A stretch of 33,323 bases of DNA from the IMG/VR virus record IMGVR_UViG_3300022745_000116, positions 1-33,323 of that record; one strand, 5' to 3'. The number at the start of each line of letters is the position of its first letter. Position 1 is the first letter of the stretch. Origin of the DNA: a virus. Below are positions 688-17,131 of the stretch, in pieces. The position numbers and the translations under genes were made by a program. The notes under the pieces were generated by a model. That model searched no databases, was not told the origin of the DNA, and saw only the letters and a program-made list of their open reading frames with translations.

Positions 688-948
688 CTAACCGTTAATT
701 CTGCCTTTTAGTTCGCCGATGGCAATTAAAATTTGGTTCATACTTTGCTGAAGCCCGTCGATTTTTTCCCAAATGGTTTTGTCTTTGTCATGGTTTTCTA
801 GCTTGTAGGTGTTGTGGTCTTGTTCTAAATATTTGACCTTGCTTTCAAGTCTTATGAACCAAGCCACAGCGGTGACAAACATTGAAAAAAGAACTAGGAC
901 ACCCGTCACCAATGACACCCAATTGTTTGCCATGTCTATTGCAACCAT
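688..948 (-). CDS. Holin-like small membrane protein with coiled coil
   Basis: An 86-residue protein with one clear transmembrane segment at about residues 10-32, followed by a charged heptad-like region (about 33-82) suggesting a cytoplasmic or periplasmic coiled coil. One membrane segment plus coiled coil, directly after the last fibre gene, resembles phage holins or haemolysin XhlA-type accessory proteins, although XhlA has its membrane segment at the C-terminus. The stop of the preceding gene abuts the start (TAAATG), implying translational coupling. Holin function is inferred; no endolysin is visible in the window. Confidence 0.65.
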   Translation of the reverse strand: MVAIDMANNWVSLVTGVLVLFSMFVTAVAWFIRLESKVKYLEQDHNTYKLENHDKDKTIWEKIDGLQQSMNQILIAIGELKGRING

Positions 949-3063
949 TTAGTTACCGACCCTTTTGATTGAGATAAATGAATCAATTGCTGCGGTGTAA
1001 ACCGAACCCGCATTTGTTTGTGAGTTGAAAACGTCAATCAAATCCCCAGCAAGTGCGGGCACGTCATGGCAAGTAAAATTTGTAAAAAAGTTTGTAACAC
1101 CAGCAACAGCCCAAGGCTGTGAGCGCACCACAGTGGCCGCATTTTTTCTTAGTGCAAATTGGTGTGCCCCTGCGCTAGCCCCCTGTTCAGCCACCTGAAA
1201 ACAAACGGCATAAGTGCCGGGGGTTGGGACCTTGAAGGCCCAAGAAGACCCTGTTGTCACCGCCGAGTGTGAGTCTTTTGTCTTGGTGTTAAATTGGATT
1301 GCCCCCGTTGCGGTAAGGGTTTGTCCTGCGCCATCTACAGTGTAGATAGCATTGACCGACTCTGTGGAAGCAACAACTGAAGGACCCGAAAGCCTAAAAA
1401 TTGAAAAGTTATTTTGTGAACCATCAGACACAGTAGAAAGTGAGCCACCAGAAGACTGGTTAACCATAACTCTAACGACATCACCCGCCACCAAATTTAA
1501 AATTTTTGACGTGGTTGTTGTGGTCACAATCGCCGATGAAGGCACACTATTTGAAATTGCCCGGTCTACGCTGTTGACTTGTATTTTAACAATTCGATTG
1601 CCCGTGGCATTTGCTGAAAAGCCGTTTTTGGCCTCAACATAATAAACCCCAGGGACCTGCACCACATAGGTGTTGCCAGAAATCCCACCCGCATTATCAA
1701 AAGCGACGGTGCCAAAAGTGGCCTGTGTGTCAGTGCCGCTTGTTACAAAGGCTTGGGCATTTCCCGAAACCACTTGTGCGGCAATCACTCTTGTATCGGT
1801 GTCGTTTGACATTTGAACATTTGACGACCAACCAGTGATTGGCACAATTGCATGAAAACTATAGCGTGTAGTCGCCGCACTAAGTGGCCCAAGGGCGCTT
1901 CCAATAAAGTTACCACCCGACGAGCTATAGAGGCAAAGCACAGCCGTCCCACAGGCATTTACGGTGCCGTCTATTTCTGTAGCACCTGAAAAGGCCGCAA
2001 AATACCCAAGGGATTGTGATTGTGCAATTGACGTGTTATCGACCTTTGTCGTGTCAATGGTGTACCCAGAAGGTAAAGCAAATTGATAAGTGCCGCTTCC
2101 CGCTGTGCCCGCTGCGGTCTGTTTAAATTCGTAGCGAAGCTCAATTGAGTCGCCAACCCTGCGCCAATACATTTTATCTTGGACAACCGTCCCTTTTGTC
2201 GGGTTTGTTGTTGTGCCCGTAATTGTGGCAACATAAGATTGCCAGTCAGTTACAACCGCCCCAGAAGGTGCCGTTTGTGGGCTAACCGAAAAGTCATCCC
2301 AGGTCATCGACACCGCACCAGCCGAAGCATTGATTGCCACAATGGCTAGGCGGTATTGGGTCGAGCTTGAAGTTGTTTGGAAGGTGCCAGTTACATAGCC
2401 CGTGCCACTTCCCTGGGTGATGCCATAAACACCAGAGGGCTGAATCCATGCACTTGCTGTGGTGTCGTAGATATAGACCGCAAAAGTGTTTGAGCTTGTG
2501 CCTGACAAATTTAAATTGGCAAGACCAGACACCACAGAATAATAGGCTTTGAAGGTTAAAACCTTTGCTTTGTCTGCGTTATCGATTGTAAACGGGCTTG
2601 AAATGAACCCTTGGCCCGCAGCCCATGCCGCACTTGAAGCCGTAGAAAGCGAATAAGTTTTTTGCAAAGGGCTCGAAGCCGTGGTTGCAAAAGTCGTGAC
2701 CGATGCCGCACCAGCCGTCACCGAACCTGTGGGAATAAGACTTGTCAGCGTAGTGTTAAATAGCGACCAGCCGGTTGTCGTATTGGTCTCAAAATCCCCG
2801 TTGCCGGTGTTGCCGTTGTAGTTTGAAAGGTAGTTTTTGCCGCCCGAGCTACCACCGATTTGGCCGGTTGTGATGGCGCTAGAAAGCTGTGAATTTATGC
2901 CATTGGCGGTGACATAAATTTTGGTGTCATTGATAAGCTGTGAAGCCGAACCGCCCGCTGCGGTCAGTTCAGAAAGTGACTTGACGTTTTCATTTTGGAT
3001 TTGCCCGGCACCAAGTGCTAGCTGTGTCCACAAGAAAAGCCCGGCTAATAAAATTCGCTTCAT
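949..3063 (-). CDS. Exported tail-fibre/adhesin-like protein with C1q-like domains
   Basis: 704 residues. It begins with a Sec signal peptide: MKR, a hydrophobic core to about residue 17, and a small-residue LALGAG cleavage region. After a Thr/Ser/Gly-rich stretch comes a jelly-roll carbohydrate-binding-like segment (about 93-265, starting with a GDFETN motif). Next is a phage fibre domain with the characteristic YWRRVGDSIELR motif (about 270-420). Two C1q/TNF-like beta domains follow (about 425-570 and 572-704), each with a PGxYxV strand and a later AGDxxxV strand. Four cysteines come in two close pairs. AGGGGGA precedes the start. Recognised as host- or surface-binding by domain type. A Sec signal on such a protein is unusual for a virion component: it may be exported rather than assembled in the cytoplasm. 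Confidence 0.75.
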   Translation of the reverse strand: MKRILLAGLFLWTQLALGAGQIQNENVKSLSELTAAGGSASQLINDTKIYVTANGINSQLSSAITTGQIGGSSGGKNYLSNYNGNTGNGDFETNTTTGWSLFNTTLTSLIPTGSVTAGAASVTTFATTASSPLQKTYSLSTASSAAWAAGQGFISSPFTIDNADKAKVLTFKAYYSVVSGLANLNLSGTSSNTFAVYIYDTTASAWIQPSGVYGITQGSGTGYVTGTFQTTSSSTQYRLAIVAINASAGAVSMTWDDFSVSPQTAPSGAVVTDWQSYVATITGTTTNPTKGTVVQDKMYWRRVGDSIELRYEFKQTAAGTAGSGTYQFALPSGYTIDTTKVDNTSIAQSQSLGYFAAFSGATEIDGTVNACGTAVLCLYSSSGGNFIGSALGPLSAATTRYSFHAIVPITGWSSNVQMSNDTDTRVIAAQVVSGNAQAFVTSGTDTQATFGTVAFDNAGGISGNTYVVQVPGVYYVEAKNGFSANATGNRIVKIQVNSVDRAISNSVPSSAIVTTTTTSKILNLVAGDVVRVMVNQSSGGSLSTVSDGSQNNFSIFRLSGPSVVASTESVNAIYTVDGAGQTLTATGAIQFNTKTKDSHSAVTTGSSWAFKVPTPGTYAVCFQVAEQGASAGAHQFALRKNAATVVRSQPWAVAGVTNFFTNFTCHDVPALAGDLIDVFNSQTNAGSVYTAAIDSFISIKRVGN

Positions 3064-3071
3064 AAATCCCC

Positions 3072-3446
3072 CTAAAATCTAGAATAACTGACCACAATGT
3101 CCGATGCGGTTGCGGGCGCATTGCCCGAGGTAAAGGTTATTGTTGACCCACTGATGGTGTAATGGGTTGTTTGTTTTTGCAATAAGCCGTTGACATAAAC
3201 TTCAACCGAAGCCGTTTGGGCTGGTGAAAAACTTAAAGTAAAAGAAAGATTTGTGCCGTTGACGGTGCCGGTCGGGACTTCCTGAACAAGTCCCGTTGAA
3301 ACCATGACCGGCCCGGTAATCGACGGCAAGCTATAGGTTTTGGAAGCATCCGAAGACCTGATGGTGTCGCCATCAATTGTTCTAGTCGCGGCCCCAAACG
3401 TTGGCACCACAAATAGTAGTGCCAAAAGGAAATTTAAAAAACGCAT
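3072..3446 (-). CDS. Small exported fibre-module protein
   Basis: 124 residues from the ATG at 3446. A longer TTG-started frame to 3458 exists, but GAGG six bases before the ATG favours the shorter form. A hydrophobic signal peptide (RFLNFLLALLFVV, then TFGA cleavage) precedes a mature protein of about 105 residues. The mature part has a short N-terminal motif (AATRTIDGDTI) resembling that of the next gene upstream, and a beta-rich module (GTVNGTNLSFTL to IVVSYSRF). That module also occurs inside the fibre protein at 4341-6080. No cysteine. Probably a surface-exposed beta-sandwich or adhesin-like module; exact role unknown. Confidence 0.7.
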   Translation of the reverse strand: MRFLNFLLALLFVVPTFGAATRTIDGDTIRSSDASKTYSLPSITGPVMVSTGLVQEVPTGTVNGTNLSFTLSFSPAQTASVEVYVNGLLQKQTTHYTISGSTITFTSGNAPATASDIVVSYSRF

Positions 3447-3470
3447 GACGAACCTCAAATCAGGTTAGGC

Positions 3471-4310
3471 TTATCGGCGGGCGATTTCATACCAAAGTGA
3501 CCCATTCCAAACGAGGGTCAAAGAAGAGTTTGTGCCACCCACCCAGGCACCATTCAAGGATAAGCCTGTGCCATCAGCCAATGTTACTGTGTTAGTTGCT
3601 GATGTTGAAACAAGAATAAGCTGTTGTCCAACGTTTGTGGCTGCGGCAATCTGCGGCGAAGCCGTAACGGTAACAGCACCACCGGACCCGGTGATAAATT
3701 GAATGTTGAAATAGTTTGTGCCTGAAAAGGTCACACCTGTTGCGGCTACAATGGCCGTTGGTGAAGCCTGTGAGCCGGTCACAGTAGGGATGCTAGAAGG
3801 TGCCGCTGCACTTGTCCAAGTTGAGCCGTTTGATGTCAGGATGTTGCCCGAAGTGCCTGGGGCCACAAGTGACACATTGGAAGTGCCCGCACCCACAAGG
3901 ACTGAACCCGAAGTCAACGTTGCCAAGCCCGTTCCACCGTTTGCCACTTTGACTTGGTTAACCAAGGAAGTGTCGGCTGAAATGCTGGTAATGTTGTTGG
4001 TTGTGCCTGAAATCGTTTTGTTGGTCAGGGTTGCGGTTGCCGCGTTTTTAGTGGCGTCAGAGGTATTGTCCACGGCTGATAAACCCACGTCAGACTTCGT
4101 GATGCCTGTGGGGGTTGAGATTGCCGGGCTGGTCAACGTCTTGTTGGTCAGCGTGCAAGTCTCATTTATCCCACAAAGTGTGCCCGTTACCGTTGGCAAT
4201 GTGATAGTGGCCGCACCGTTGGTGATAGCCGAACCATCAAGGACGCGGTTTGTTGCTGCGAAGGTCGTAGATGCAAAAAGCATCAGACCAAGAATTGCTA
4301 GTTTTTTCAT
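3471..4310 (-). CDS. Exported fibre-like protein with tail-fibre repeats
   Basis: 279 residues with a textbook Sec signal peptide (MKKLAILGLMLFASTTFA, cleavage after the final AxA-like TFA). The mature protein starts with a DG-motif module like that of the 3072-3446 protein. It continues with phage-fibre repeats (TLTNKTLTSP, GLSAVDNTSD) and ends in a beta domain finishing W-x-EI-x-RR. The same C-terminal domain closes the neighbouring fibre at 4341-6080. Two cysteines sit six residues apart early in the mature chain, suiting a disulfide. AAGGAG precedes the ATG. Fibre-like content is clear. Why it is exported is not, and it may be secreted or displayed rather than part of the virion. Confidence 0.75.
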   Translation of the reverse strand: MKKLAILGLMLFASTTFAATNRVLDGSAITNGAATITLPTVTGTLCGINETCTLTNKTLTSPAISTPTGITKSDVGLSAVDNTSDATKNAATATLTNKTISGTTNNITSISADTSLVNQVKVANGGTGLATLTSGSVLVGAGTSNVSLVAPGTSGNILTSNGSTWTSAAAPSSIPTVTGSQASPTAIVAATGVTFSGTNYFNIQFITGSGGAVTVTASPQIAAATNVGQQLILVSTSATNTVTLADGTGLSLNGAWVGGTNSSLTLVWNGSLWYEIARR

Positions 4311-4340
4311 TTTATTTACTCCTTGGCCTATGGCCTTTTG

Positions 4341-6080
4341 TTATCGTCTAGAAATTTCATTCCACAAAGCCCCATCCCAAATTAACCAAATGGAAGACTT
4401 TGCTTTCAAATCAACGGCACCATTTAAGTAAAGCCCGTTGCCGTCATTCAAGGTTATGTAATCAGTGTCGTCTTGTCCAATCAAGACCAGTTCATTCCCG
4501 ATTGCTGACCCGGCTGCAATTTGTGGGTTGGCCGTCACCGTTACATGGCCCCCCGTTGACTTTAAAAAGGCCACTTGGCGGGCATTACTTGTGGGGGTAA
4601 TGCCAGAAGTGCCGATGTTTAATGGCGCAGCCACGGTGCCTTGCGGGACCAAAGTGGGGGTTGGCGTTGGCGCTGGGGCCGTTGTGGCGTTGTAAACCAC
4701 AACCAGGCTTTGGGCCGTTGCGGGCTGAAAACCTGAACCAAACGTCAAAGTGGTGCCTGACACTGACCATTGGTTTGGTGGCTGGTGAACACCGGCAATA
4801 AACACACTCAAGCCCGCCGCACTGTCAGGGGCTTGGGAAAGTGTGAAGGTTTGGTTTACCCCATTTATGGTGCCGCTTGGCGTTTCTTGGAAAGGGTTAC
4901 CCCCACCTGCGCCGCCGCCACCAATAACCACATAACGTGAGCTTGAAACGTCAAACCACATTAAAGCCGCAGCGTTGTTTGGCAAACTCATGTCAAAGCC
5001 GCTAAAGGTAAAAATGCCGTTAGTGACGTTTGAATTTTTAAGGGTGATGGTTGCACCCGTTTTATTTAAAATTAAAAAGAACTGTTTAGTGGTTGAGCCT
5101 GTGATTGTAGCCACAGAAGCAAGCGAACTATTGCTTAATTTCACAACCGCTTTGGCCGGTGCAGGCATTGCCGCATTGGTCCCGGTGGTTGTTGAGTCGG
5201 TCACATCGTCGCCAATTAAGCGGCCAAGTGTAGCCAAGTCACCGTTGAAAGTTTTAGCACCACCAAAAATCTGCGAGCCGGTATTTACTAGACCACGCAA
5301 AGAAGCTGTGGCGTCCACAATATCTTGGGTGGCAAAAAAGCTCGGTAAATCTAGAACCGACTCACCAAGTGTTGGTCTATTTTCAGCGTCAAAAACTTCC
5401 CTGAATACCACCTTAATAGAACTTGCCGTCAGGTTGTAAGCCGTTTCGGTGCCGGAAATATTGACAAAGAAATTTAAAGTCCACACACCAGCGGCATAAG
5501 TCAGGCGGCCATAAACCCTGCGGCCCGAAGTGTCTTCAATGTAATCTAAAATGGTTGCGTCCAAAATCAGATTTCTATTGTCTGGGCTTGAGGTAATAAC
5601 CCCAGCCGAAGACGTTGAACCGCCCGCAACCTTTCCGCTCATTAAGCTTGTAACCACCTTTGTGGTGCCTGCGATTGAGCTAACGGTGATGCTTTGAAGA
5701 ACTGTAAAATATTTATTAAAATTTGCCAAAGTGTTGGCAGAAATCAAAGCACCGTCACCGGCTGCGCCTGTGTGAGCATGGCCTGTGGTCCCATTAAATT
5801 TTGCGTCGATTTTTCCCAGGGCTGTTTTATGGCTATCACCATTGGTTATAACAGTCTGTGACGCATAATTTTTCCTTGTAGCATCGTTGGTGCCACTCAT
5901 CCCAACGGCGTCGAAGGTCTCGTTCAAAGCTTGTTGGACGTTATCAACACTGGCCCCCGATTGGGACTGCGAATTTTGCAAGGCAAGAATTGCCACAGTG
6001 CTGGTATTTGGTGCCGTCCTAGATAGGAAAGCTGTATTGAACGTTGTTTGGTTTGCAATTTGGCCGTTAACTACCGACAT
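4341..6080 (-). CDS. Tail fibre / receptor-binding-type protein
   Basis: 579 residues, no signal peptide and no cysteine. The N-terminus (VNGQIANQTTFNTAFLSRT, then DNVQQALNETFDAVG) is typical of phage fibres that attach to the tail tip through their N-terminus. It is followed by a GHAHTGAAGDG collagen-like turn (about residue 145), central beta-rich domains, the module shared with 3072-3446 (about 400-470), a proline-threonine linker, and a C-terminal domain shared with 3471-4310 ending EISRR. GAGGG lies upstream of the ATG. It follows the tail-tip gene by 1 base. Likely recognises the host surface; assignment rests on domain style and position. Confidence 0.8.
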   Translation of the reverse strand: MSVVNGQIANQTTFNTAFLSRTAPNTSTVAILALQNSQSQSGASVDNVQQALNETFDAVGMSGTNDATRKNYASQTVITNGDSHKTALGKIDAKFNGTTGHAHTGAAGDGALISANTLANFNKYFTVLQSITVSSIAGTTKVVTSLMSGKVAGGSTSSAGVITSSPDNRNLILDATILDYIEDTSGRRVYGRLTYAAGVWTLNFFVNISGTETAYNLTASSIKVVFREVFDAENRPTLGESVLDLPSFFATQDIVDATASLRGLVNTGSQIFGGAKTFNGDLATLGRLIGDDVTDSTTTGTNAAMPAPAKAVVKLSNSSLASVATITGSTTKQFFLILNKTGATITLKNSNVTNGIFTFSGFDMSLPNNAAALMWFDVSSSRYVVIGGGGAGGGNPFQETPSGTINGVNQTFTLSQAPDSAAGLSVFIAGVHQPPNQWSVSGTTLTFGSGFQPATAQSLVVVYNATTAPAPTPTPTLVPQGTVAAPLNIGTSGITPTSNARQVAFLKSTGGHVTVTANPQIAAGSAIGNELVLIGQDDTDYITLNDGNGLYLNGAVDLKAKSSIWLIWDGALWNEISRR

Positions 6081-6081
6081 T

Positions 6082-6864
6082 TTATTGGCCCTCGGCTAGT
6101 CTAAAAATTAGTGGTTTTATTTCATAATAAAAAGGCAGATTTCTAGCGAAGGTCTCGACTAGCTCAAAGCCTGTGCCCGATTTATCTGTTGGTGTGCTTT
6201 CTAAAAGCAAAGGTTCAAACTCATCAGGACTTGAAACGTCTTCAATAAATTCAATGGGTGCTTTGGTGATGCAATATTCTAAGAAAGCCAAAGCATCTTC
6301 ATAGCCCGTCAGGTTTGTTTTAATTAGTGAGCCGGGGGGCTGGACAAGGTCATTGATAAAAAGAAGGTCGCATTTCATAAATCTTTCATCGCCAAATTTT
6401 TGCACGCTCACAAGGCCGCTTGCAGATTTTGAAACGGTTGAGTCTGAAGCCCTAAGATTTTGTTTTGTGGGCATATAATTTTGAAGGAAAAATTGCGGGT
6501 AATAAATGGACCCACTTCTTTCACCACCAATTATTGTGGTAATGCCCAGCGAATCAACAGAAGCAAAACCAAGAAGACTAAAAATAGAAGTTGATGCGTT
6601 TTCACCTGTTGCCCCCAAAGAGTCAAAAGACCCCGAACTTGTCAGGGTTATGATGCCGGTTTGATAGTCTACACTTAAAGAATAGTCATTGGACCCAACG
6701 CTGTTTAAAGCGTCGGCCACCACCTGCAAAAGTTTTGTGAGGGTGTAAGAACCCACAGGCACCACAGCATGGCGGGTGTTTGTGCCTTCCTTAAAATCAA
6801 TGTCGCGATTTGATATGTCCACAGTGTGGCCGTAACGAAAGGCTGAATAAACGCTTAAACTCAC
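6082..6864 (-). CDS. Tail-tip / distal-tail-like structural protein
   Basis: 260 residues, GTG start overlapping the tape-measure stop (GTGA), with a G-rich ribosome site upstream. The first half contains a beta domain with the signature VGSYTLTKLLQVVADALN, then a strand pattern ending in SLLGFA. Similar domains recur in phage and viral structural proteins, and one is present in the neck protein at 10859-11875. The second half is mixed alpha/beta without a recognised motif. Its place right after the tape measure is where Dit or other tail-tip proteins are encoded. Structural role is probable; Dit identity is not proven. Confidence 0.6.
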   Translation of the reverse strand: MSLSVYSAFRYGHTVDISNRDIDFKEGTNTRHAVVPVGSYTLTKLLQVVADALNSVGSNDYSLSVDYQTGIITLTSSGSFDSLGATGENASTSIFSLLGFASVDSLGITTIIGGERSGSIYYPQFFLQNYMPTKQNLRASDSTVSKSASGLVSVQKFGDERFMKCDLLFINDLVQPPGSLIKTNLTGYEDALAFLEYCITKAPIEFIEDVSSPDEFEPLLLESTPTDKSGTGFELVETFARNLPFYYEIKPLIFRLAEGQ

Positions 6865-8885
6865 ACCGCCCCCACTATGGTTGTGCCTTGTTGTTGAAAC
6901 GACTCTCTGATGACTTCGGCCAATTCGAGCCCGGTTTGTCTGCGGTCTAAAATGTTACCTTGGACAACCACTTGAACGCTTTGGCCGGGCGTCTCTGGTT
7001 TTTGTGTCTCGGTAGGGGTGAAAGAGCCACCACTTGTGGGGCTTGCAGCCACGCCACCACCGGACCCACCACCGCCGCCTGTGTCGCTTCCTGTGTTGCC
7101 GCTTGAAAGGGATTTCAACAATCCCCCCAGGGTGATAAGAGCTAAACCTGCGGCAATCGCTGGGCCGCCTGCCAACCCCACAATTGAAGCCTTGATGGCA
7201 TCAACCCCAAAACCAACGGTTAAGAAAGCGTTACCAATTTGAATGGCAATGTCACCCAGTAGGGCCAAAATGCCTTTTCCGAAAGCGTCGAAGACATTTT
7301 TACCCTGGGCCAAAGCCGCGCCCACACCCTGAAAGGTGCTGTTTAAATTTGAAAGCAAAATGGCTTTAATGTCCACTTGGGTCTTGGCTGTTAGCTCTTT
7401 GAGTTTTACTTGCAAAGCCACTTCAGCCGCCACACGTTTGTTGGCGTAGTCTAGCTGCAAAGATAAAAGGGCTGAATTTCTTTGTGCTTCTGTAAACCCT
7501 TTTTCTTTGGAATATTTGTCAGCAATTTCTTTTCTGGCAAGTTCAAACTGTTCTTCAAGAATGACCCGCTTTTGATTGTCGATGTCTTCAACGGTTCGGA
7601 TTTGCTGCCTGACATCTTCAATCAATGGAAGCTGTGCTTCTTGGATGCCAATGAAATCAGACTGGGCTTTAATTTGCAGGCCCAAAATCTGATTGTCTCT
7701 TGCCCTGATAGCTGCAAGCTGTTCAGCGGTCAATTTTGTAACCGCGTCACCCTGTTTTTCAGCCGCTTCTTTGGCTGATTTTGCAATCAATTCGCTTGTC
7801 TGGGTGGTAGCTTTTGCAGTCTGGTCAAAGAGTTTTTGTGTTTCAATAAGTTGAAAACGAAGCTTTTCAATCAAGTCGGTATTATCAAGTTTTTTTCTTG
7901 AGTCAAAAAACCCATCACCAAGCTTTTCATTTTCATTGGTCAGATTTTGGATTTGATAACCCAGGGAAATAATCTGCGCTTTGTAGTTTGCAGCTTGTTC
8001 AGTTTGCTTTTCAAATGTGGTTTTGGGCTTTTCCAATTCCACAACTTGCTTTAAGAAATTTGCAATTGCACCCGTGGCGGCTGCAAACTTTGAGCCCAAA
8101 ACAGAGTTTAAAAACAGGTCAAAATCTTCGGTCAATTCAGTGAAAGCAACGCCGATTTTTTTGACGTTTAAATTGTTTTCAATCAAGCCGCCTTGAACAT
8201 TCTTAAATTTATTTCCGGCTTGGTCCAAAAAGGCATTTAAAATGGCTTGCTGTTGCTGGGCCTTGGTCAGTTCACTAGATGTTAAACCGATGGCACTTGC
8301 ATAATCCCTAAAGGCTTTTTGCTGGTCAATGACCACACCCTGTGAGCGCAGCATCCTTGCGTTTGCCGTTTCAATTCCACGGGTGACTTCGGCAAAGCGT
8401 TCTTCAAGCGAACCACCAAGGGCCGCTGTAATTTTTCTGGTCACTTCTAAAACTTGTGGAAGTTTGGCCGCGTTGGACCCAAGCTCAATGATGGCACCGT
8501 TAGCAGTTTTTAAAAGTGAAGTCGTGTCAATCAAGCCGCCCGCAGACTTTTCAAGGCTTTCTTTTAGTTCAGACCCCACAAGGCCAACACTTTCGGCCAA
8601 GTTGTCAAACTGGACCCTGACAGCGTTGATTTTTTCGCCTTCGAGGGTTAGGTCAAATGCTTCTTTTATGATGACCCCAGTGGCTACAGCCGCAAGGCCG
8701 ATGGTGGCAAACGCCACATCAATGCCTAAAACGGCTTCCTTCACAAAGGAAAGCGGGTCAAAATTTAAAACGTCTTTTAGTTTTTTAGAACTATCGGCGG
8801 CCTGACCTTCAAGCTTTGCAAATGCGTCCCTGATTTGTTTTTCATCAAGGGCAAACTCAAATATTAACTTCTGGTCATCGGCCAC
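6861..8885 (-). CDS. Tape measure protein
   Basis: 674 residues, GTG start with AAGGGG upstream, overlapping the frameshifted chaperone gene by 11 bases. Mostly helical and Gln/Lys/Glu/Ala-rich. It has a hydrophobic segment at about 52-73 and a Gly/Ala-rich hydrophobic region at about 520-595, then a Gly/Ser/Thr-rich low-complexity linker (about 596-640) and a short C-terminal domain. Helical proteins with central membrane-like segments directly after the G/GT chaperones are tape measures, which set tail length and help DNA cross the inner membrane. At about 0.15 nm per residue the length predicts a tail near 100 nm. No lysozyme or peptidase motif seen. Confidence 0.9.
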   Translation of the reverse strand: MADDQKLIFEFALDEKQIRDAFAKLEGQAADSSKKLKDVLNFDPLSFVKEAVLGIDVAFATIGLAAVATGVIIKEAFDLTLEGEKINAVRVQFDNLAESVGLVGSELKESLEKSAGGLIDTTSLLKTANGAIIELGSNAAKLPQVLEVTRKITAALGGSLEERFAEVTRGIETANARMLRSQGVVIDQQKAFRDYASAIGLTSSELTKAQQQQAILNAFLDQAGNKFKNVQGGLIENNLNVKKIGVAFTELTEDFDLFLNSVLGSKFAAATGAIANFLKQVVELEKPKTTFEKQTEQAANYKAQIISLGYQIQNLTNENEKLGDGFFDSRKKLDNTDLIEKLRFQLIETQKLFDQTAKATTQTSELIAKSAKEAAEKQGDAVTKLTAEQLAAIRARDNQILGLQIKAQSDFIGIQEAQLPLIEDVRQQIRTVEDIDNQKRVILEEQFELARKEIADKYSKEKGFTEAQRNSALLSLQLDYANKRVAAEVALQVKLKELTAKTQVDIKAILLSNLNSTFQGVGAALAQGKNVFDAFGKGILALLGDIAIQIGNAFLTVGFGVDAIKASIVGLAGGPAIAAGLALITLGGLLKSLSSGNTGSDTGGGGGSGGGVAASPTSGGSFTPTETQKPETPGQSVQVVVQGNILDRRQTGLELAEVIRESFQQQGTTIVGAV

Positions 8886-9183
8886 TTCTACCCCTTAGCG
8901 CCATTTGTTCAGCCAGTTCTTTGGCTGTTATGGTGGCGGCTTCTGGTCTAAACTGTTGTGGGTAAGCATAACGGTGCATTTCCCGCAACATTTCTTCCCG
9001 CGCTTCCTGTTTTAGGTGCGGCAACATACTGATGTTAGCTTGTACTAAAAATTCACGGGCTTCAAGCACTGTAATTGCTTCCCACAAATCAGTGAAAGTA
9101 AAAACGTCAAGGCCCGTTATTTGGTCTGGGTGCAGGCCGTAAAACCTGCAAATTTTGGCAATTTTTAGGTCTTGGGGCTCTAG
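8875..9183 (-). CDS. Tail assembly chaperone, frameshift extension (GT-type T domain)
   Basis: This frame has no good start of its own; the only early candidate is a TTG (TTG TGG) at 9087 without a ribosome site. It is open back to the A-AAA-AAC slippery site at 9183-9189. Read as the -1 product, it adds 102 residues to the 86 residues of the gene at 9180-9440, giving a 188-residue fusion. The extension begins LEPQDLKIAKICRF and contains helical segments ending in AEQMALRGRSGR. The G/GT layout before the tape measure is conserved in many siphoviruses, where GT coats the tape measure and recruits tail tube subunits. The frameshift itself is a prediction. Confidence 0.8.
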   Translation of the reverse strand, partial: LEPQDLKIAKICRFYGLHPDQITGLDVFTFTDLWEAITVLEAREFLVQANISMLPHLKQEAREEMLREMHRYAYPQQFRPEAATITAKELAEQMALRGRSGR

Positions 9184-9440
9184 TTTTTTTTTGAGCCCAG
9201 CAAGAAAGTAAAAAACTCGGTGTAGTCATCACCATCAAAAAAAGTTAAATGCTCTTTGGAAAGACCAAGGTCCATGTAAAACTTTTCTAAAACGTTGATG
9301 GCGTCACCTGGGTCAGCTTCTTTCACCGCGTTTTGAACTTCAAACGCTTCAGACACCGCAGGTATTCTAATTTCAACCGTCACACCGTTGGGAAGTTTTA
9401 CTTTCCCAACTTTCTTTTTTACTTCAAAAACTTTTGTCAT
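9180..9440 (-). CDS. Tail assembly chaperone (G-type)
   Basis: 86 residues, ATG start with GGAG upstream, ending LGSKKN at the slippery A-tract. The N-terminal part is basic beta (KVGKVKLPNGVTVEIRIP), then an alpha region (EAFEVQNAVKEADPGDAINV). Position between tail tube and tape measure, small size, and termination exactly at a -1 slippery sequence identify it as the G-type chaperone that keeps the tape measure soluble during tail assembly. Chaperones of this kind are usually absent from the finished virion. It is the only in-frame product; a minority of ribosomes should continue into the 8875-9183 frame. Confidence 0.85.
   Translation of the reverse strand: MTKVFEVKKKVGKVKLPNGVTVEIRIPAVSEAFEVQNAVKEADPGDAINVLEKFYMDLGLSKEHLTFFDGDDYTEFFTFLLGSKKN
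9183..9189 (-). promoter_or_regulatory. Predicted -1 ribosomal frameshift site A-AAA-AAC
   Basis: On the minus strand the end of the G-type gene reads TCA AAA AAA AAC TAG: nine A residues, then C. The heptamer A AAA AAC fits the X-XXY-YYZ rule, and slipping back one base bypasses the TAG into a frame open for 102 further codons. A hairpin with 6-bp arms TGCAGG/CCTGCA (9131-9150) lies about 32 bases downstream, further than usual for a stimulatory structure. Location and geometry match the conserved tail chaperone frameshift of dsDNA phages. Confidence 0.8.
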
Positions 9441-9473
9441 TTAAAAAGCTCCAATCAAGCTGTTGATAAATTT

Positions 9474-10400
9474 TTAGATGCCCAGACCTGCGGCCCCGCC
9501 GTCACCGATAAGGAAGAACTGAATTTCTTTGTTCTTAGTGGTGTCAGGTTGAACAGTGAATTTCAAAGGAATGGTAGAAATTTTTTCACCTGAAAAAGTA
9601 AACTTGTCTAGCAACGCTTGGGCTTTCCAGAAATTCCAATCCTGTGTGCGGTCGGAAGCATCCAAAGCCACAGGATGAAGTCTCATGTAAATAGTTGGGA
9701 CTTGTTTACCCACAAGTGTTGGACCAAAACCGAAAGTGTCGATTTGACCCGCGCCAATTGGCAAGAATGGGTAGTGGCCCGCAGCGATGAAAGCCTGTTT
9801 TACAGACTCTTTATCGGTCTCATTTAGGGTAAAATCAACTTCCATGGGGGGATAACCTTTAACCAGTTTTCCCAACACTGTGGTGCCTGTGTGCTGACAT
9901 TTGATGTCTTCGGTGTCAGCTTTCAAACCAGACACAACAATTTCACCCTCAATGCAACCCGCTTCGCGCTCAATTTGACCAACAGTCAAAAGTTGAAAAG
10001 CAAAACCTGATTTGTTTACATCGTCTGGGTCGCGTGCAGGATTTGCAAATCCTGGGGCTGTTGCAACCAGTGTCACCACGTTGCCTGATGCTGTTGCATC
10101 AAAGCCCGCGACGTTGGTCAAAATAGCCGCAAGGGCCGTTGCCACCGCCGCCGCAGTCATTGGGTTGGTAATGCTGACCGCGTGTCCAGTCCAACCACCC
10201 GCAGGTGCAGGGTCTACAGAAGAACCAGTGTCAAACCAAGCGTAGTGTTTTGCACCAGCGGCATCTTGAAAAAGAAAATATTTTCCGGCAAGACTTGAAG
10301 TTGAAGAAGTTGGCACACAAGTGATTGCCTGAACCTGTGGCGTGTCTTTGCCCAGATAGACAAACATTGGTTGAATTTTTACGTTTGCGATATTGCTCAT
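9474..10400 (-). CDS. Major tail tube protein
   Basis: 308 residues, ATG start with AAAGGGGA upstream. An N-terminal segment (about 25-130) contains a module found in several phage virion proteins (HYAWFDTGSS, then an alanine-rich helix TAAAVATALAAIL and a SGNVVTLVAT strand). It may be an added surface domain. The rest is beta-rich with VDFTLNETDKESVKQAF and IPLKFTVQPD strands typical of tube subunits. It lies between the tail-terminator-like gene and the G/GT chaperones, exactly where the tail tube gene is expected. Assignment is by position and composition; no catalytic motif is expected. Confidence 0.8.
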   Translation of the reverse strand: MSNIANVKIQPMFVYLGKDTPQVQAITCVPTSSTSSLAGKYFLFQDAAGAKHYAWFDTGSSVDPAPAGGWTGHAVSITNPMTAAAVATALAAILTNVAGFDATASGNVVTLVATAPGFANPARDPDDVNKSGFAFQLLTVGQIEREAGCIEGEIVVSGLKADTEDIKCQHTGTTVLGKLVKGYPPMEVDFTLNETDKESVKQAFIAAGHYPFLPIGAGQIDTFGFGPTLVGKQVPTIYMRLHPVALDASDRTQDWNFWKAQALLDKFTFSGEKISTIPLKFTVQPDTTKNKEIQFFLIGDGGAAGLGI

Positions 10401-10418
10401 TGGCGTCCCCTTTTATTT

Positions 10419-10862
10419 TTAAACCGTTGGTAACTCTAAAACTATCACTAAGGAAAAATCGATTGTCAACCTAACCGCGTTGTCATTGGACCTAGACATG
10501 GGGCTGGGGTCAAAGTTTATCACTTGGACCGACTTAATTGAGGGCTGGGTCACGCGATTTTTGGCCATCATGGCCCGCTCAACTATCGCCTGACCCTTTG
10601 CAATAATATCATCGACATTTTGTGGAAGGTTCTTTGCAGCGGGGTAATAGAGGGTGATTGTAGCGTCACCGCTAAACTGAATAAATCTTGGCTGGTCAAT
10701 ATTTACCACCTTGAATTTACCCACAAGGATGTGAAAGCACCGCTTGTCTATGATGGTTTTGGGAATGTTATCTTCGTTAAAAGCGTCATTCCACTCAACC
10801 AACTTTGCGTCGGCTTCCTTTATCACTTTTCTAAAATAGGGGCGAACGTCTACAAAACTCAT
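10419..10862 (-). CDS. Tail terminator / head-tail joining-like protein
   Basis: 147 residues. Alpha/beta pattern: N-terminal helix (VRPYFRKVIKEADAKL), beta strands around residues 45-75, a helix (VDDIIAKGQAIVERAMM) and C-terminal strands (VRLTIDFSLVIVLE). Size, fold pattern and place just upstream of the tail tube gene match tail terminator proteins, which cap the tube and allow joining to the head. The start overlaps the stop of the neck protein gene (ATGA), so translation is coupled. Family not certain; another neck or tail-completion protein is possible. Confidence 0.6.
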   Translation of the reverse strand: MSFVDVRPYFRKVIKEADAKLVEWNDAFNEDNIPKTIIDKRCFHILVGKFKVVNIDQPRFIQFSGDATITLYYPAAKNLPQNVDDIIAKGQAIVERAMMAKNRVTQPSIKSVQVINFDPSPMSRSNDNAVRLTIDFSLVIVLELPTV

Positions 10863-12251: not shown

Positions 12252-15200
12252 CTAGATGCTCACGGTAACGGTTGCACCCGTGCCGCCTGCGCCGCCTGTT
12301 GTGCCCGCGCCTGTAGCGCCAACACCGCCGGTTACTGGACCCACATGGGTGCCAGTCAGCAAGTTGAAGTTGATTGCATCGATGTAACCAGAGTCGCCAC
12401 CGTTACCACCTTGGCCCGGTGTCGCAAGGGCCGAGTTACCACCGTTGCCGCCCGTACCGCCCTGGCATTGCAAAAGACCCGTAACTGTTGGGCCTGATTT
12501 AAAGTTGTAGGCAAAGTAAATGTAGCCACCGCCACCGCCACCACCACCACCACCACCGCCGTTACCAGCCGCAGCCGCAGGGCCACCGGCACCACCGGCA
12601 CCACCCACAGATTGGATAAGATTGGAAGCTGTAGAAGCCGAAGTCAGCACCATGTCGGCATAAATGGCGACAACGCCGCCACCGGACCCACCACCGCCAC
12701 CGCCCCGAGCATTACCAACGGTCACACCGTCGCCACCGCCCGAAGACCCGCCACGGCCTGAACCACCACCAAGAATTTGTAAAGCTGCCCGCAAGAATTG
12801 GTTTTCAAATCGGCCCATAAGAACGCGATTGGAAGCCGCACCACCGGCACCCGCGGCACCACCTGCATTGGTCCCTGCGCCACCTGCGCCGCCCTGACCG
12901 CCATTGCCCCCATTACCAGGGGTGACACCCGTGGGTGCCGCAGCCGCCGTGCCCGCTGCCACAGTGGCGGTTGAGCCCGCTGTGCCAGCGTTGGACCCGC
13001 CCAACATACTGGACGCAAGAGCCGCGCCCGCTGTGCCGCCCGTTTGGACTGTGGCCGCACCACCCGCATTACCATTATTTCTGATGGCCCCGGCAGTTGT
13101 GGCGTTGGTTAAGTCAAGCGTTTGACAATAAATTGGATAACCTGCGGTGTTGATTTGAGCGCCCGCAAGAATTGTTAAAGTGTTGTAATAAACTGGACCC
13201 GTCAAAGTGACGTTTCCTGAAATGCTCACATTTCCTAAGTTACCGTCACCAAAGTCTTGGCCCAAGTTTTCTTGGTCCCAAGTCGGTACGCCACCTAGTG
13301 AACGCAGCAAATAAGTTGTAGTCCCCACAGGTAAACGAGTGGTGACGTTTGAGCTATTTCTGTAAAGCAAATCGCCCGCTGTTGTCAGGGGGTCAATCAG
13401 CAAAGTGCCACTTGCATTTGGTAAAATGTAAGCCCGGTCGGCGTTGTTGGCCGTGCCGTCGAAAGTTCTGACAAAGCCGTTTTCACCCTTCCAAGAAAAT
13501 TTGCCGGTGTTGTCAGCATAAAGGGCAAAACCAGAAGTTGGCGTTGTAACAGGGGTGGCAACCGTTTGACGTTCAAACACCATTTTTCCGGTGTTCACGT
13601 TGTCACCTTTTACCGTGGTTGCCCCGGTAATTGTGCCACCTGTTTTTTGAAAATATTGTGTGTGTGGGTCTGAAGTCGCGATGTGGGCATTTATTCCCAC
13701 AGTGACGCGGGCATCAGCCGCAGTAGAAAAATCAGAGATTGTGGCCGCAAGCTGTGTGCCTGTGTGGTTGCCACGTTGAACAGCATAAGCCTGAGCCGCA
13801 GCTTGTGCAGCGGCATCAGCCGCAGCCTGTGCCGTACTTACCGGCTTGGCGCTATCAGCGGTATTGTCCACATTGCCCAAACCGATGTTTGTCCTAGCCG
13901 TTGAAGCACTTGCAAGGTCTGAAAGGTTAGCAGATTTTTGAAGACTTGTGGCTTGTGCCGCAGCCGTTGCCGCACTTTGAGCCGAGGCAATCGCCGCAGC
14001 CTGAGCGGTCGATACAGGCTTATTTACGTCGCTCACGTTGTCCACATTGCCCAAATTTACATCTGTGGCTGTGATAACTACAGCACCAGTGCGGCCTTGA
14101 ACTGATGCCACCGCATCGGTATTGTCAACTTTGCCCCATTTAGTGCCGTCATAAATTGCCCAGTCCCCAACTTTCCAATCAGAAATCCCATCAAGGTTTG
14201 TGCTACCAGCGACATTGACAATGTAATAATAGCCTTTGGTGCCGACACTTGAAGCAAGGGCCGGTGAGTTGGAAGAAGCGTCCCAAGTTGATTGATAAAT
14301 TGAAGCCCCAAGGAGGCTTCCTGGGATTTGTGACAAAGGAATTTTTGAAGTCGCATCTAGTGTTGCAAGTCCAAGAGCCGCGCCCTTTTGGGCCGCAATT
14401 CTTGCATCAGCCGCAGTAGAAAAGTCAGAAATTGTGGCGGCTAGTTGTGTGCCGGTGTGATTACCTCGTTGAATTGCATAAGCTTGCACAGCGGCGTCAG
14501 CCGCAGCTTGTGCCGAGCTTACTGGCTTCACACTATCAGCGGTATTGTCCACATTGCCCAAGCCCAAGTTATTTCTTGAAGCCGAGGCCGAAGCTAAGTC
14601 AGAAAGATTGGCAGATTTTTGAAGGCTTGTGGCCTGGGCCGCAGCCGTTGCCGCAGCATCAGCCGCAGCCTGTGCGGTTGATACGGGCTTGGCGCTATCG
14701 GCGGTATTGTCCACATTGCCCAAACCGATGTTTGTCCTTGCCGCAGAGGCCGAAGCAACATCGGAAAGGTTCGCAGATTTCTGAAGGCTGGTGGCCTGGG
14801 CCGCAGCCGTTGCCGCAGTCTGTGCCGAAGCAATCGCCGCAGCTTGAGCCGTTGACACCGGCTTGTTTGCATCGCTCACATTGTCCACTTGGTCCAAATT
14901 TATGTCGGCTTTATCGCCACTTGTAGCTACAGCCGCAAGCCCTGTGATGGTGCTAGCGTCCTGTGTGCCTGTGTGGTTTGAACGTGAAAGCAAAAATGCG
15001 TCGGTGCTGTTCACTGTGGCGCCGCTTGCGATGCCATTTAATTTTGATTTGTCTGTTGGCGACATAAAGCCCGCCACAGAAGTGGTGGCAAGAGCGTGTT
15101 CAGTGCCGCCGCTTCCAACGTGTGAGCTTGGTACTTTGCCTGCGTTCAATTCATTGATAGCCGCCTGCACGTTTGTGGAAGACATACCGCCCGAAGGGGT

Positions 15201-15431
15201 GTGCGACACTTGGTCAGAGCTATAGTCACCACTTGCAGGCACTACAGCGCCCGAACGGCCTTTAAAACTTAAAACCCCACCACTTGAAAGAGCTTCAACG
15301 TCAACAAATGCGCGTGAGTCATCAATTTTGGTTAGGTGCCCGTTGGCCGCGTCCACAAAATAGAAAAACTCACCCGCGTTGGGTGTTGGAACGTCAGCCC
15401 TTGCATAAGTTTGATAACCATAAATGCCCAT
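12252..15431 (-). CDS. Long repeat-rich fibre with glycine-rich C-terminus
   Basis: 1059 residues, no signal peptide. N-terminal attachment-like region (1-95), HTGTQ turns, and five repeats of a GLGNVDNTADSAKPVS-type unit with alanine-rich helices (AQAAADAAATAAAQ) and LQKSANLSDLAS linkers. Then comes a central beta region (about 560-760) and a C-terminal third dominated by Gly/Ala runs, including twelve consecutive glycines, like collagen- or polyglycine-helix fibre tips. GAGGGGA precedes the ATG. It is encoded between head and neck genes rather than after the tape measure, so it may be a head or neck fibre, or a side fibre. The repeat and glycine architecture is visible; the attachment site is inferred. 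Confidence 0.8.
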   Translation of the reverse strand: MGIYGYQTYARADVPTPNAGEFFYFVDAANGHLTKIDDSRAFVDVEALSSGGVLSFKGRSGAVVPASGDYSSDQVSHTPSGGMSSTNVQAAINELNAGKVPSSHVGSGGTEHALATTSVAGFMSPTDKSKLNGIASGATVNSTDAFLLSRSNHTGTQDASTITGLAAVATSGDKADINLDQVDNVSDANKPVSTAQAAAIASAQTAATAAAQATSLQKSANLSDVASASAARTNIGLGNVDNTADSAKPVSTAQAAADAAATAAAQATSLQKSANLSDLASASASRNNLGLGNVDNTADSVKPVSSAQAAADAAVQAYAIQRGNHTGTQLAATISDFSTAADARIAAQKGAALGLATLDATSKIPLSQIPGSLLGASIYQSTWDASSNSPALASSVGTKGYYYIVNVAGSTNLDGISDWKVGDWAIYDGTKWGKVDNTDAVASVQGRTGAVVITATDVNLGNVDNVSDVNKPVSTAQAAAIASAQSAATAAAQATSLQKSANLSDLASASTARTNIGLGNVDNTADSAKPVSTAQAAADAAAQAAAQAYAVQRGNHTGTQLAATISDFSTAADARVTVGINAHIATSDPHTQYFQKTGGTITGATTVKGDNVNTGKMVFERQTVATPVTTPTSGFALYADNTGKFSWKGENGFVRTFDGTANNADRAYILPNASGTLLIDPLTTAGDLLYRNSSNVTTRLPVGTTTYLLRSLGGVPTWDQENLGQDFGDGNLGNVSISGNVTLTGPVYYNTLTILAGAQINTAGYPIYCQTLDLTNATTAGAIRNNGNAGGAATVQTGGTAGAALASSMLGGSNAGTAGSTATVAAGTAAAAPTGVTPGNGGNGGQGGAGGAGTNAGGAAGAGGAASNRVLMGRFENQFLRAALQILGGGSGRGGSSGGGDGVTVGNARGGGGGGSGGGVVAIYADMVLTSASTASNLIQSVGGAGGAGGPAAAAGNGGGGGGGGGGGGYIYFAYNFKSGPTVTGLLQCQGGTGGNGGNSALATPGQGGNGGDSGYIDAINFNLLTGTHVGPVTGGVGATGAGTTGGAGGTGATVTVSI
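13841..14910 (-). repeat. Five intragenic direct repeats in the fibre gene
   Basis: Copies of a roughly 55-60 bp unit encoding the NVDN-x-xD-KPVS segment lie at about 13841-13898, 14010-14066, 14521-14579, 14680-14740 and 14855-14910, separated by alanine-codon-rich stretches. The first and fourth share the run ggtattgtccacattgccca and continue almost identically. Such repeats allow fibre length to change by recombination. Confidence 0.75.
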
Positions 15432-16681: not shown

Positions 16682-17131
16682 TTACAGTTTTGGCTTGTAG
16701 ACCAACACCATCATTTTCAATTTGCCCGCAGTCAAAGCCGCGCCCGCAATTGTCAAAGAAAGTTTTCCTTTGTTTGCAACGTCAGCATAAAAAGGCACGC
16801 CGATTGCGTATTGAGCGATGTTGTTCAAAGCGAAAGCCGCGTTGCTGTAAGACGTGGCAGCAAGGTAGCGTCCAGAGCTTGCAGCATCACCAAGGGCAAC
16901 CGTTGCGGCACCACCAGAAGTGAAAGCCTGTTCAACAGTGTAAAAACCGCTGACAATGTAAGAACCCGCTGGAATGGCTTTTTTGCCACAAAGATCGATA
17001 GTGCCGACCGCGCCGCCTTTGACTGCAAAGTCATAAGAACATTCTTGAAGTGAATAAACCCCACCTCCCATCATTGCGTGTGCGCTGATGGTGGCAAACA
17101 TTGAGATAACAAGAGCTAAGAGCATTTTCAT
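16682..17131 (-). CDS. Exported head-decoration-like protein
   Basis: 149 residues from the ATG at 17131; the frame extends to 17170, but AAAGGA 8 bases before 17131 marks this start. It opens with a Sec signal peptide (KMLLALVISMFATISAHA, cleavage after AHA). The mature domain matches the common capsid-associated beta domain found next to phage coat genes, with motifs FAVKGGAVGTIDL, IPAGSYIVSGFY, FTSGGAATVALGDAA and a terminal LTIAGAALTAGKLKMMVLVY. Two cysteines, 18 positions apart, could form a disulfide after export. It follows the coat gene across a terminator-like hairpin. Decoration proteins normally bind capsids in the cytoplasm, so the signal peptide is unexpected. Confidence 0.75.
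   Translation of the reverse strand: MKMLLALVISMFATISAHAMMGGGVYSLQECSYDFAVKGGAVGTIDLCGKKAIPAGSYIVSGFYTVEQAFTSGGAATVALGDAASSGRYLAATSYSNAAFALNNIAQYAIGVPFYADVANKGKLSLTIAGAALTAGKLKMMVLVYKPKL

Follow-up and report, generated by a model that had tools for sequence, protein, structure and literature searches.

Tail fibres determine the host range of phages and, in the textbook view, are assembled in the cytoplasm. An exported phage protein of another kind is Llp of phage T5, a small receptor-blocking lipoprotein that protects against superinfection and inactivation of progeny. In Bdellovibrio, signal peptides are combined with phage-fibre-like modules and trimeric tips of the TNF/C1q type in the mosaic adhesive trimer (MAT) proteins, which carry a conserved β-rich domain of ~130 residues after the signal (PMC10769870). 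Signal peptides on tail fibres, or exported tail fibres, were not found described in the literature searched, which covered few subscription journals. Here, we analyse three consecutive genes, P3, P2, and P1 (Table 1), of the IMG/VR virus record IMGVR_UViG_3300022745_000116, the whole of which (33,323 bases) constitutes the window. We propose, with a probability of roughly 55%, that they encode the distal part of a tail fibre that would be exported, fold in the periplasm, and dock onto a virion-borne stub at or after lysis.

The described systems resemble this locus in part. MAT proteins share with P1-P3 a signal, a fibre shaft, and an adhesive tip, a likeness by architecture only (PMC10769870). 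They are adhesins of a cellular predator, whereas P1-P3 are encoded by late phage genes paired with a virion fibre, and the mature N-termini of the latter consist of a short motif or of an IQNEDVKS domain instead of the ~130-residue domain. A profile search gave no sequence match between the window proteins and MAT structures. T5 Llp is phage-encoded and exported, as predicted for P1-P3, and both could shield progeny from the receptor; Llp, however, is a lipoprotein of small size rather than a fibre, and none of its orthologues is a fibre. Proteins gp9 and gp10 of phage T4 and TSP4 of phage CBA120 belong to baseplates or spike branches assembled in the cytoplasm with no export, unlike the dock proposed below for the fibre preceding P3 (fibre A).

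The P1, P2, and P3 open reading frames (ORFs) each start with the n-region, h-region, and cleavage site of what reads as a classical Sec/signal peptidase I signal, with predicted cleavage (↓) at MKRILLAGLFLWTQLALGA↓GQIQ, MRFLNFLLALLFVVPTFGA(A)↓TRT, and MKKLAILGLMLFASTTFA↓ATN. A Shine-Dalgarno-like sequence precedes each of the three starts (GGGGG, GAGG, AAGGAG). The ATG of P2 lies at 3446 and the ORF list begins at an in-frame TTG at 3458, the signal being predicted from either start. No lipobox is present, a cysteine being absent at the cleavage site of all three. Signal calls throughout were made with a heuristic score of our own, not SignalP. By this score, 3 of the 42 non-overlapping ORFs of the window pass, namely P1, P2, and P3 only, a fourth signal-bearing ORF (16682-17131) having been removed by the overlap filter and hence standing outside the 42. 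The background rate is 5.5% among 1041 ORFs of at least 100 residues from related viral loci, and shuffled N-termini of the three genes still pass in 0.7%, 1.2%, and 6.6% of cases. Across the family, 40 of 44 members score as signals, versus 0 of 37 signal-less relatives, and these signals keep their character despite little sequence conservation. An earlier note, written from the letters of this DNA, had described clean Sec signals on three consecutive fibre-type genes. The ORFs, the tripartite signals, and the ribosome-binding sites bear this out within the heuristic score, as does homology to fibre proteins of tail operons. Its cysteine counts (4, 0, and 2 in the mature proteins, none in the signal-less fibre at 4341-6080) are also correct. 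As to signal conservation in homologues, a point that the note had raised, signals are kept in diverged phages, and signal-less orthologues were found as well.

The order signal-less fibre, P3, P2, P1, followed by lysis genes where traced, is conserved in diverged phages, and the signals are conserved across phages with siphovirus-, podovirus-, and myovirus-type tail genes. All three genes occur with signals and in the same order in L006, L007, L071, L074 (where an ORF is inserted between P3 and the signal-bearing P2), L080, and L068+L087, and P3 and P2 with signals in L004, L005, L084, L085, and L086. Myovirus baseplate genes are found in several of these phages. In podovirus MW202898, a signal-less T7-type fibre is followed by a single exported protein joining a P3 N-terminus to a P1 tip. 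The 45-kb phage contig L005 harbors four consecutive signal-bearing fibre-type genes at 3807-10783 (960, 431, 345, and 577 residues). The P3/P2 cassette is also carried by the large phage contigs L085 and L086 (157 and 160 kb), in which the genes sampled for the host yielded no usable host marker.

A four-gene module without any signal is found in L070, L073, L075, L076, L077, and L079. Orthology to the window genes holds for its P2' and P1', whereas P3 has an equivalent in position only: the gene found there in L070, L073, L076, and L079 is homologous to P3 by neither its N- nor its C-terminus. P1' begins with M-x-K-IQNEDVKS, at the residue where mature P1 begins, and only a few bases separate its start from the P2' stop codon, which leaves no room for a hidden upstream signal. 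Window P1 and P1' of L070 are 38% identical end to end over the mature length (720 columns, E 3e-112), and P2 and P2' are 44-46% identical and have the C-terminal DUF4183-like domain in common. Across phages, the signals of P1 and P2 covary fully (7/0/0/6, Fisher p 6e-4): a cassette has signals on all of its links or on none. The modules of L070, L073, L076, and L079 share with the window their tail-gene neighbours, the P2/P1 orthologues, and the N-terminal domain and tip of P1, but none of their links bears a signal and their fibre A ends in another C-terminal domain. In L061, which shares the tail genes of the window, a single fusion protein unites the virion anchor of fibre A with the P1 tip (44% over 673). 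This fusion, another in L003, and the P1/P2 homology place the window proteins among fibre modules of tail operons; we read P1, P2, and P3 as distal tail-fibre pieces.

Fibre A combines two affinities. Its residues 1-265 match signal-less siphophages, while the last 100 find their matches in fibres of phages that bear signals and possess myovirus and podovirus genes; P3, P2, and P1 match these same signal-bearing phages, unlike the fibre A anchor. The C-terminal domain of P3 is also that of fibre A (48% identical over 82 residues). In a first set of loci, every protein with this domain, namely 11 signal-less fibres and the exported P3s, is followed by a gene with a signal peptide. Since P3 queries had contributed to the retrieval of these loci, a separate, blind scan of 2.9 million viral contigs was made with the fibre A C-terminal domain alone. 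With near-duplicates merged and one contig end excluded, eight new distinct phages were scorable, and the next gene bears a signal in all eight, seven being called by script and one (L204, MFKYLLFIVLFFAEFTHA↓Q) by eye; the chance of this result is ~1e-8, counting the 7/8 script-called cases against the 5.5% background. Where the fibre A anchor carries another C-terminus, the next gene is signal-bearing in 0/7 cases, versus 2/2 where it carries the domain. The pairing does not require the domain on the exported protein itself, which is without it in no fewer than five phages (L003, L201, L203, L204, and L210/L211) and belongs to a different type in several of the new cases. A motif R/K-x-(hydrophobic)-x-x-D/G-x-(hydrophobic) is present just past the signal in 17/19, and a hidden Markov model of the mature N-terminal motif, built with the signal excluded, matches signal-bearing ORFs only. 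Two elements stay constant across paired phages, the domain carried by the virion fibre and this post-signal motif.

P1 is composed of its signal, a conserved N-terminal domain (QIQNENVKS..SQLINDTKIYVTANG), a β-sandwich region, a C1q-type tip (~424-561), and a C-terminal β domain. In comparisons of predicted models, the tip superimposes on the C1q domain of Caprin-2 (Z 19.1, root-mean-square deviation 1.6 over 129 residues) and on the phage phi812 spike (Z 18.6), and its profile matches the single-chain C1q head 5hkj (E 8e-13). As modelled, the tip is a C1q/TNF-type jelly roll. Model confidence is moderate, with a mean predicted local distance difference test (pLDDT) score of 66 for P1 and 60 for P3, of which the last 90 residues reach ~90. 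Profile searches of the PDB with the fibre A C-terminal domain and with P2 returned nothing significant. The P1 N-terminal domain (81 columns) yields a poorly resolved tree, from which gains and losses of the signal are not countable.

Cysteines were the earlier note's argument for disulfides formed in the periplasm. Cysteine pairing in the window alone was rejected as evidence, signal-less P1 orthologues holding 1-10 cysteines. The argument gains weight over the family: among chains with cysteine, the count is even in 29/37 exported versus 9/20 non-exported ones, and cysteine density is twice as high in exported chains, in a comparison that is post hoc and drawn from phylogenetically non-independent sequences. 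This pattern is consistent with oxidative folding. Export of fibre-type proteins, one part of the note's interpretation, is well supported by signal conservation, all-or-none covariation, and co-inheritance with the fibre A domain.

The tail genes of the window (tape-measure-like, distal-tail-like, and fibre) match siphophage relatives. Its terminase is ~28% identical to those of Guernseyvirinae-like phages, a broad pointer only, to siphophages of Gram-negative hosts, and a VapE-type primase-helicase is also encoded. On the minus strand, the genes run from the tape measure through the distal-tail-like gene, fibre A, P3, P2, and P1 to the holin-like gene, after which small genes and, at the contig end, an Rz1-like lipoprotein follow (Table 1). 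Elsewhere in the window, a 1059-residue signal-less fibre (12252-15431, minus strand) with LGNVDNTSDANKPVSTAQ repeats and a glycine-rich C-terminus is likely a second adhesin of the virion. The fourth signal-bearing ORF (minus strand, MKMLLALVISMFATISAHA↓MMGGG, two cysteines) lies directly after the major capsid gene, and its product could be a small exported protein of the virion or of the cell surface.

Table 1. Features of the predicted export cassette and of its neighbours in the window.
Feature	Position	Strand	Description
P1	949..3063	-	Predicted exported distal fibre protein, 704 residues; signal peptide residues 1-19
P2	3072..3446	-	Predicted exported short link, 124 residues; signal peptide, TRTIDGDTI motif, DUF4183-like C-terminal domain
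P3	3471..4310	-	Predicted exported fibre link, 279 residues; signal peptide, NRVLDGSAI motif, TLTNKTLT shaft, Phage_depo_C-like C-terminal domain
Fibre A	4341..6080	-	Signal-less fibre; N-terminus 1-265 common to signal-less siphophages; C-terminal domain of ~88 residues
Fibre A C-terminal Phage_depo_C-like domain	4344..4607	-	Proposed docking end for exported links
Distal-tail-like conserved tail gene	6082..6864	-	Upstream of fibre A; also in signal-less siphophage relatives
Tape-measure-like protein	6861..8885	-	Also in signal-less siphophage relatives L061, L073, L079
Small holin-like membrane protein	688..948	-	Immediately follows P1; matches to PHROG are weak

We infer from these patterns export in vivo, a docking step, its timing, and an order of the links, as follows. 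P3, P2, and P1 would be distal tail-fibre links synthesised as Sec precursors, exported, and cleaved of their signals. Their folding and trimerisation would take place in the periplasm of a presumably diderm host, while virions assembled in the cytoplasm would carry the signal-less stub fibre A only. Upon opening of the envelope by holin, endolysin, and spanin, the links would dock on the C-terminal domain of fibre A through the motif located a few residues past their cleavage site, and the finished fibre would end in the C1q-type tip of P1. In its predicted fold, the putative dock bears a modest likeness (Z 5-6) to the fibre-connecting domains of T4 gp9/gp10 and CBA120 TSP4. T4 and P22 tail fibres and tailspikes can join particles in lysates, which makes late fibre addition chemically plausible.

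Several points weigh against this proposal. Contact between the exported proteins and virions would be limited to a brief period at lysis, and with the second large signal-less fibre (12252-15431) the virion may not depend on P1. The fibre A C-terminal domain is assigned by Pfam to Phage_depo_C, and the matches of the fibre A/P3 domain to T4 gp9, gp10, and CBA120 TSP4 are modest (Z 4.9-6.3, on weak models with the mean pLDDT values given above) and tied with or below those to glycan-handling proteins, so that this domain could bind a receptor rather than a fibre. The limits of the cysteine comparison count here as well. A genome scan of 85,000 species with the P1 N-terminus found no relative and gave no host for the family; no virion proteomics of any family member was found.

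Among the roles that the earlier note had listed, the best fit is late assembly outside the inner membrane, and a receptor-blocking decoy remains the main rival. Exported tips would then bind the receptor from the periplasm or from debris, prevent superinfection or progeny inactivation, and never join the virion. A competitor would carry the domain that P3 and fibre A have in common, the cassette is late and just ahead of the lysis genes, and the P1 tip resembles trimeric adhesive C1q folds. Nevertheless, pairing persists where the exported protein lacks the shared domain, the N-terminal domain of P1 is kept in exported and signal-less forms alike, which a free decoy would not need, and there is no lipobox; we regard this explanation as unlikely, if the most serious of the alternatives.

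It is improbable that the signals go unused in infection, or that export is incidental, the proteins being ordinary tail parts assembled in the cytoplasm. The 40/44 versus 0/37 signal scores and the even cysteine counts speak against it, signals borne together by three or four adjacent genes in an all-or-none pattern are hard to square with it, and signal character is maintained where sequence is little conserved; on its side are the signal-less orthologues, necessarily cytoplasmic, and the heuristic nature of the signal calls. Finally, the exported fibres could be adhesins on the surface of the infected cell, serving aggregation, biofilm formation, or attachment in the manner of the Bdellovibrio proteins, whose combination of signal, phage-fibre modules, and TNF/C1q-type tip they reproduce (PMC10769870), down to the C1q-like tip of P1. 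A location in a late tail operon, the pairing with a virion fibre domain, the lack of a recognised outer-membrane anchor, and expression shortly before lysis, when adhesion would be of little use, render this very doubtful. Lysogenic conversion was considered but not retained, given the position of the genes in the late tail operon.

Signal-bearing fibre-like genes are not restricted to this family. Those of Burkholderia phage BcepC6B (gp19) and Xanthomonas phage PBR31 (orf35) lie between a signal-less spike or fibre and holin/lysozyme genes. They differ from the window in their mature N-terminal motif and tip and in an upstream spike without the C-terminal domain. They are deposited as tail fibre or putative structural protein in records without signal-peptide annotation, and the PBR31 paper reports no signal on orf35 (PMC10975493). 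In a Cupriavidus necator prophage, such a gene follows a T7-like fibre. These genes (L186 6001-7074 for gp19, L185 6001-6810 for orf35, L145 9293-10606 for the Cupriavidus prophage) form a second signal-bearing family with a common mature N-terminus, LxNPAGSTxGQAI..APxWG, located between tail fibre or spike and lysis genes. In phage BPP-1, mtd, which encodes the receptor-binding protein, follows the Bbp9 fibre gene; the N-terminus of BcepC6B gp18 resembles Bbp9 and gp19 occupies the mtd position, this gene position alone being in common, as gp19 and BPP-1 Mtd show no similarity. A second genome scan detected signal-bearing fibre genes of families other than that of the window in Cupriavidus, Bosea, and Rhizobium prophages. 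Two such genes follow a large tail protein in the siphoprophages of Bradyrhizobium (phage ppBdUSDA122-1, L187 5890-9971) and Bosea LC85 (L153 9383-13201), and the 865-residue Bradyrhizobium protein holds 18 cysteines. Neighbouring signal-bearing fibre-like genes also stand beside phage-like structural genes in metagenome-assembled genomes of Terriglobia (L149 8435-16563) and Obscuribacterales (L142 4646-12268), bins of non-proteobacterial diderms. We see an even chance that many tailed phages of diderms build two-compartment fibres, in which a Sec-exported, oxidatively folded arm would dock at lysis onto a cytoplasmic stub, and that a swappable pair, the stub domain and the N-terminal motif of the arm, travels between sipho-, myo-, and podoviruses.

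If the receptor-binding end of the fibre is secreted and added outside, proteins that determine host range can carry disulfides, and fibre tips would be exchangeable between co-infecting phages in the periplasm or in the lysate. Pipelines that assign genes with a signal peptide to the host or to morons would also overlook such fibre genes. Orthologous cassettes with signals on all links or on none offer a direct test of the idea, and the same gene layout in cultured phages and in the Cupriavidus necator prophage brings a bench test within reach.

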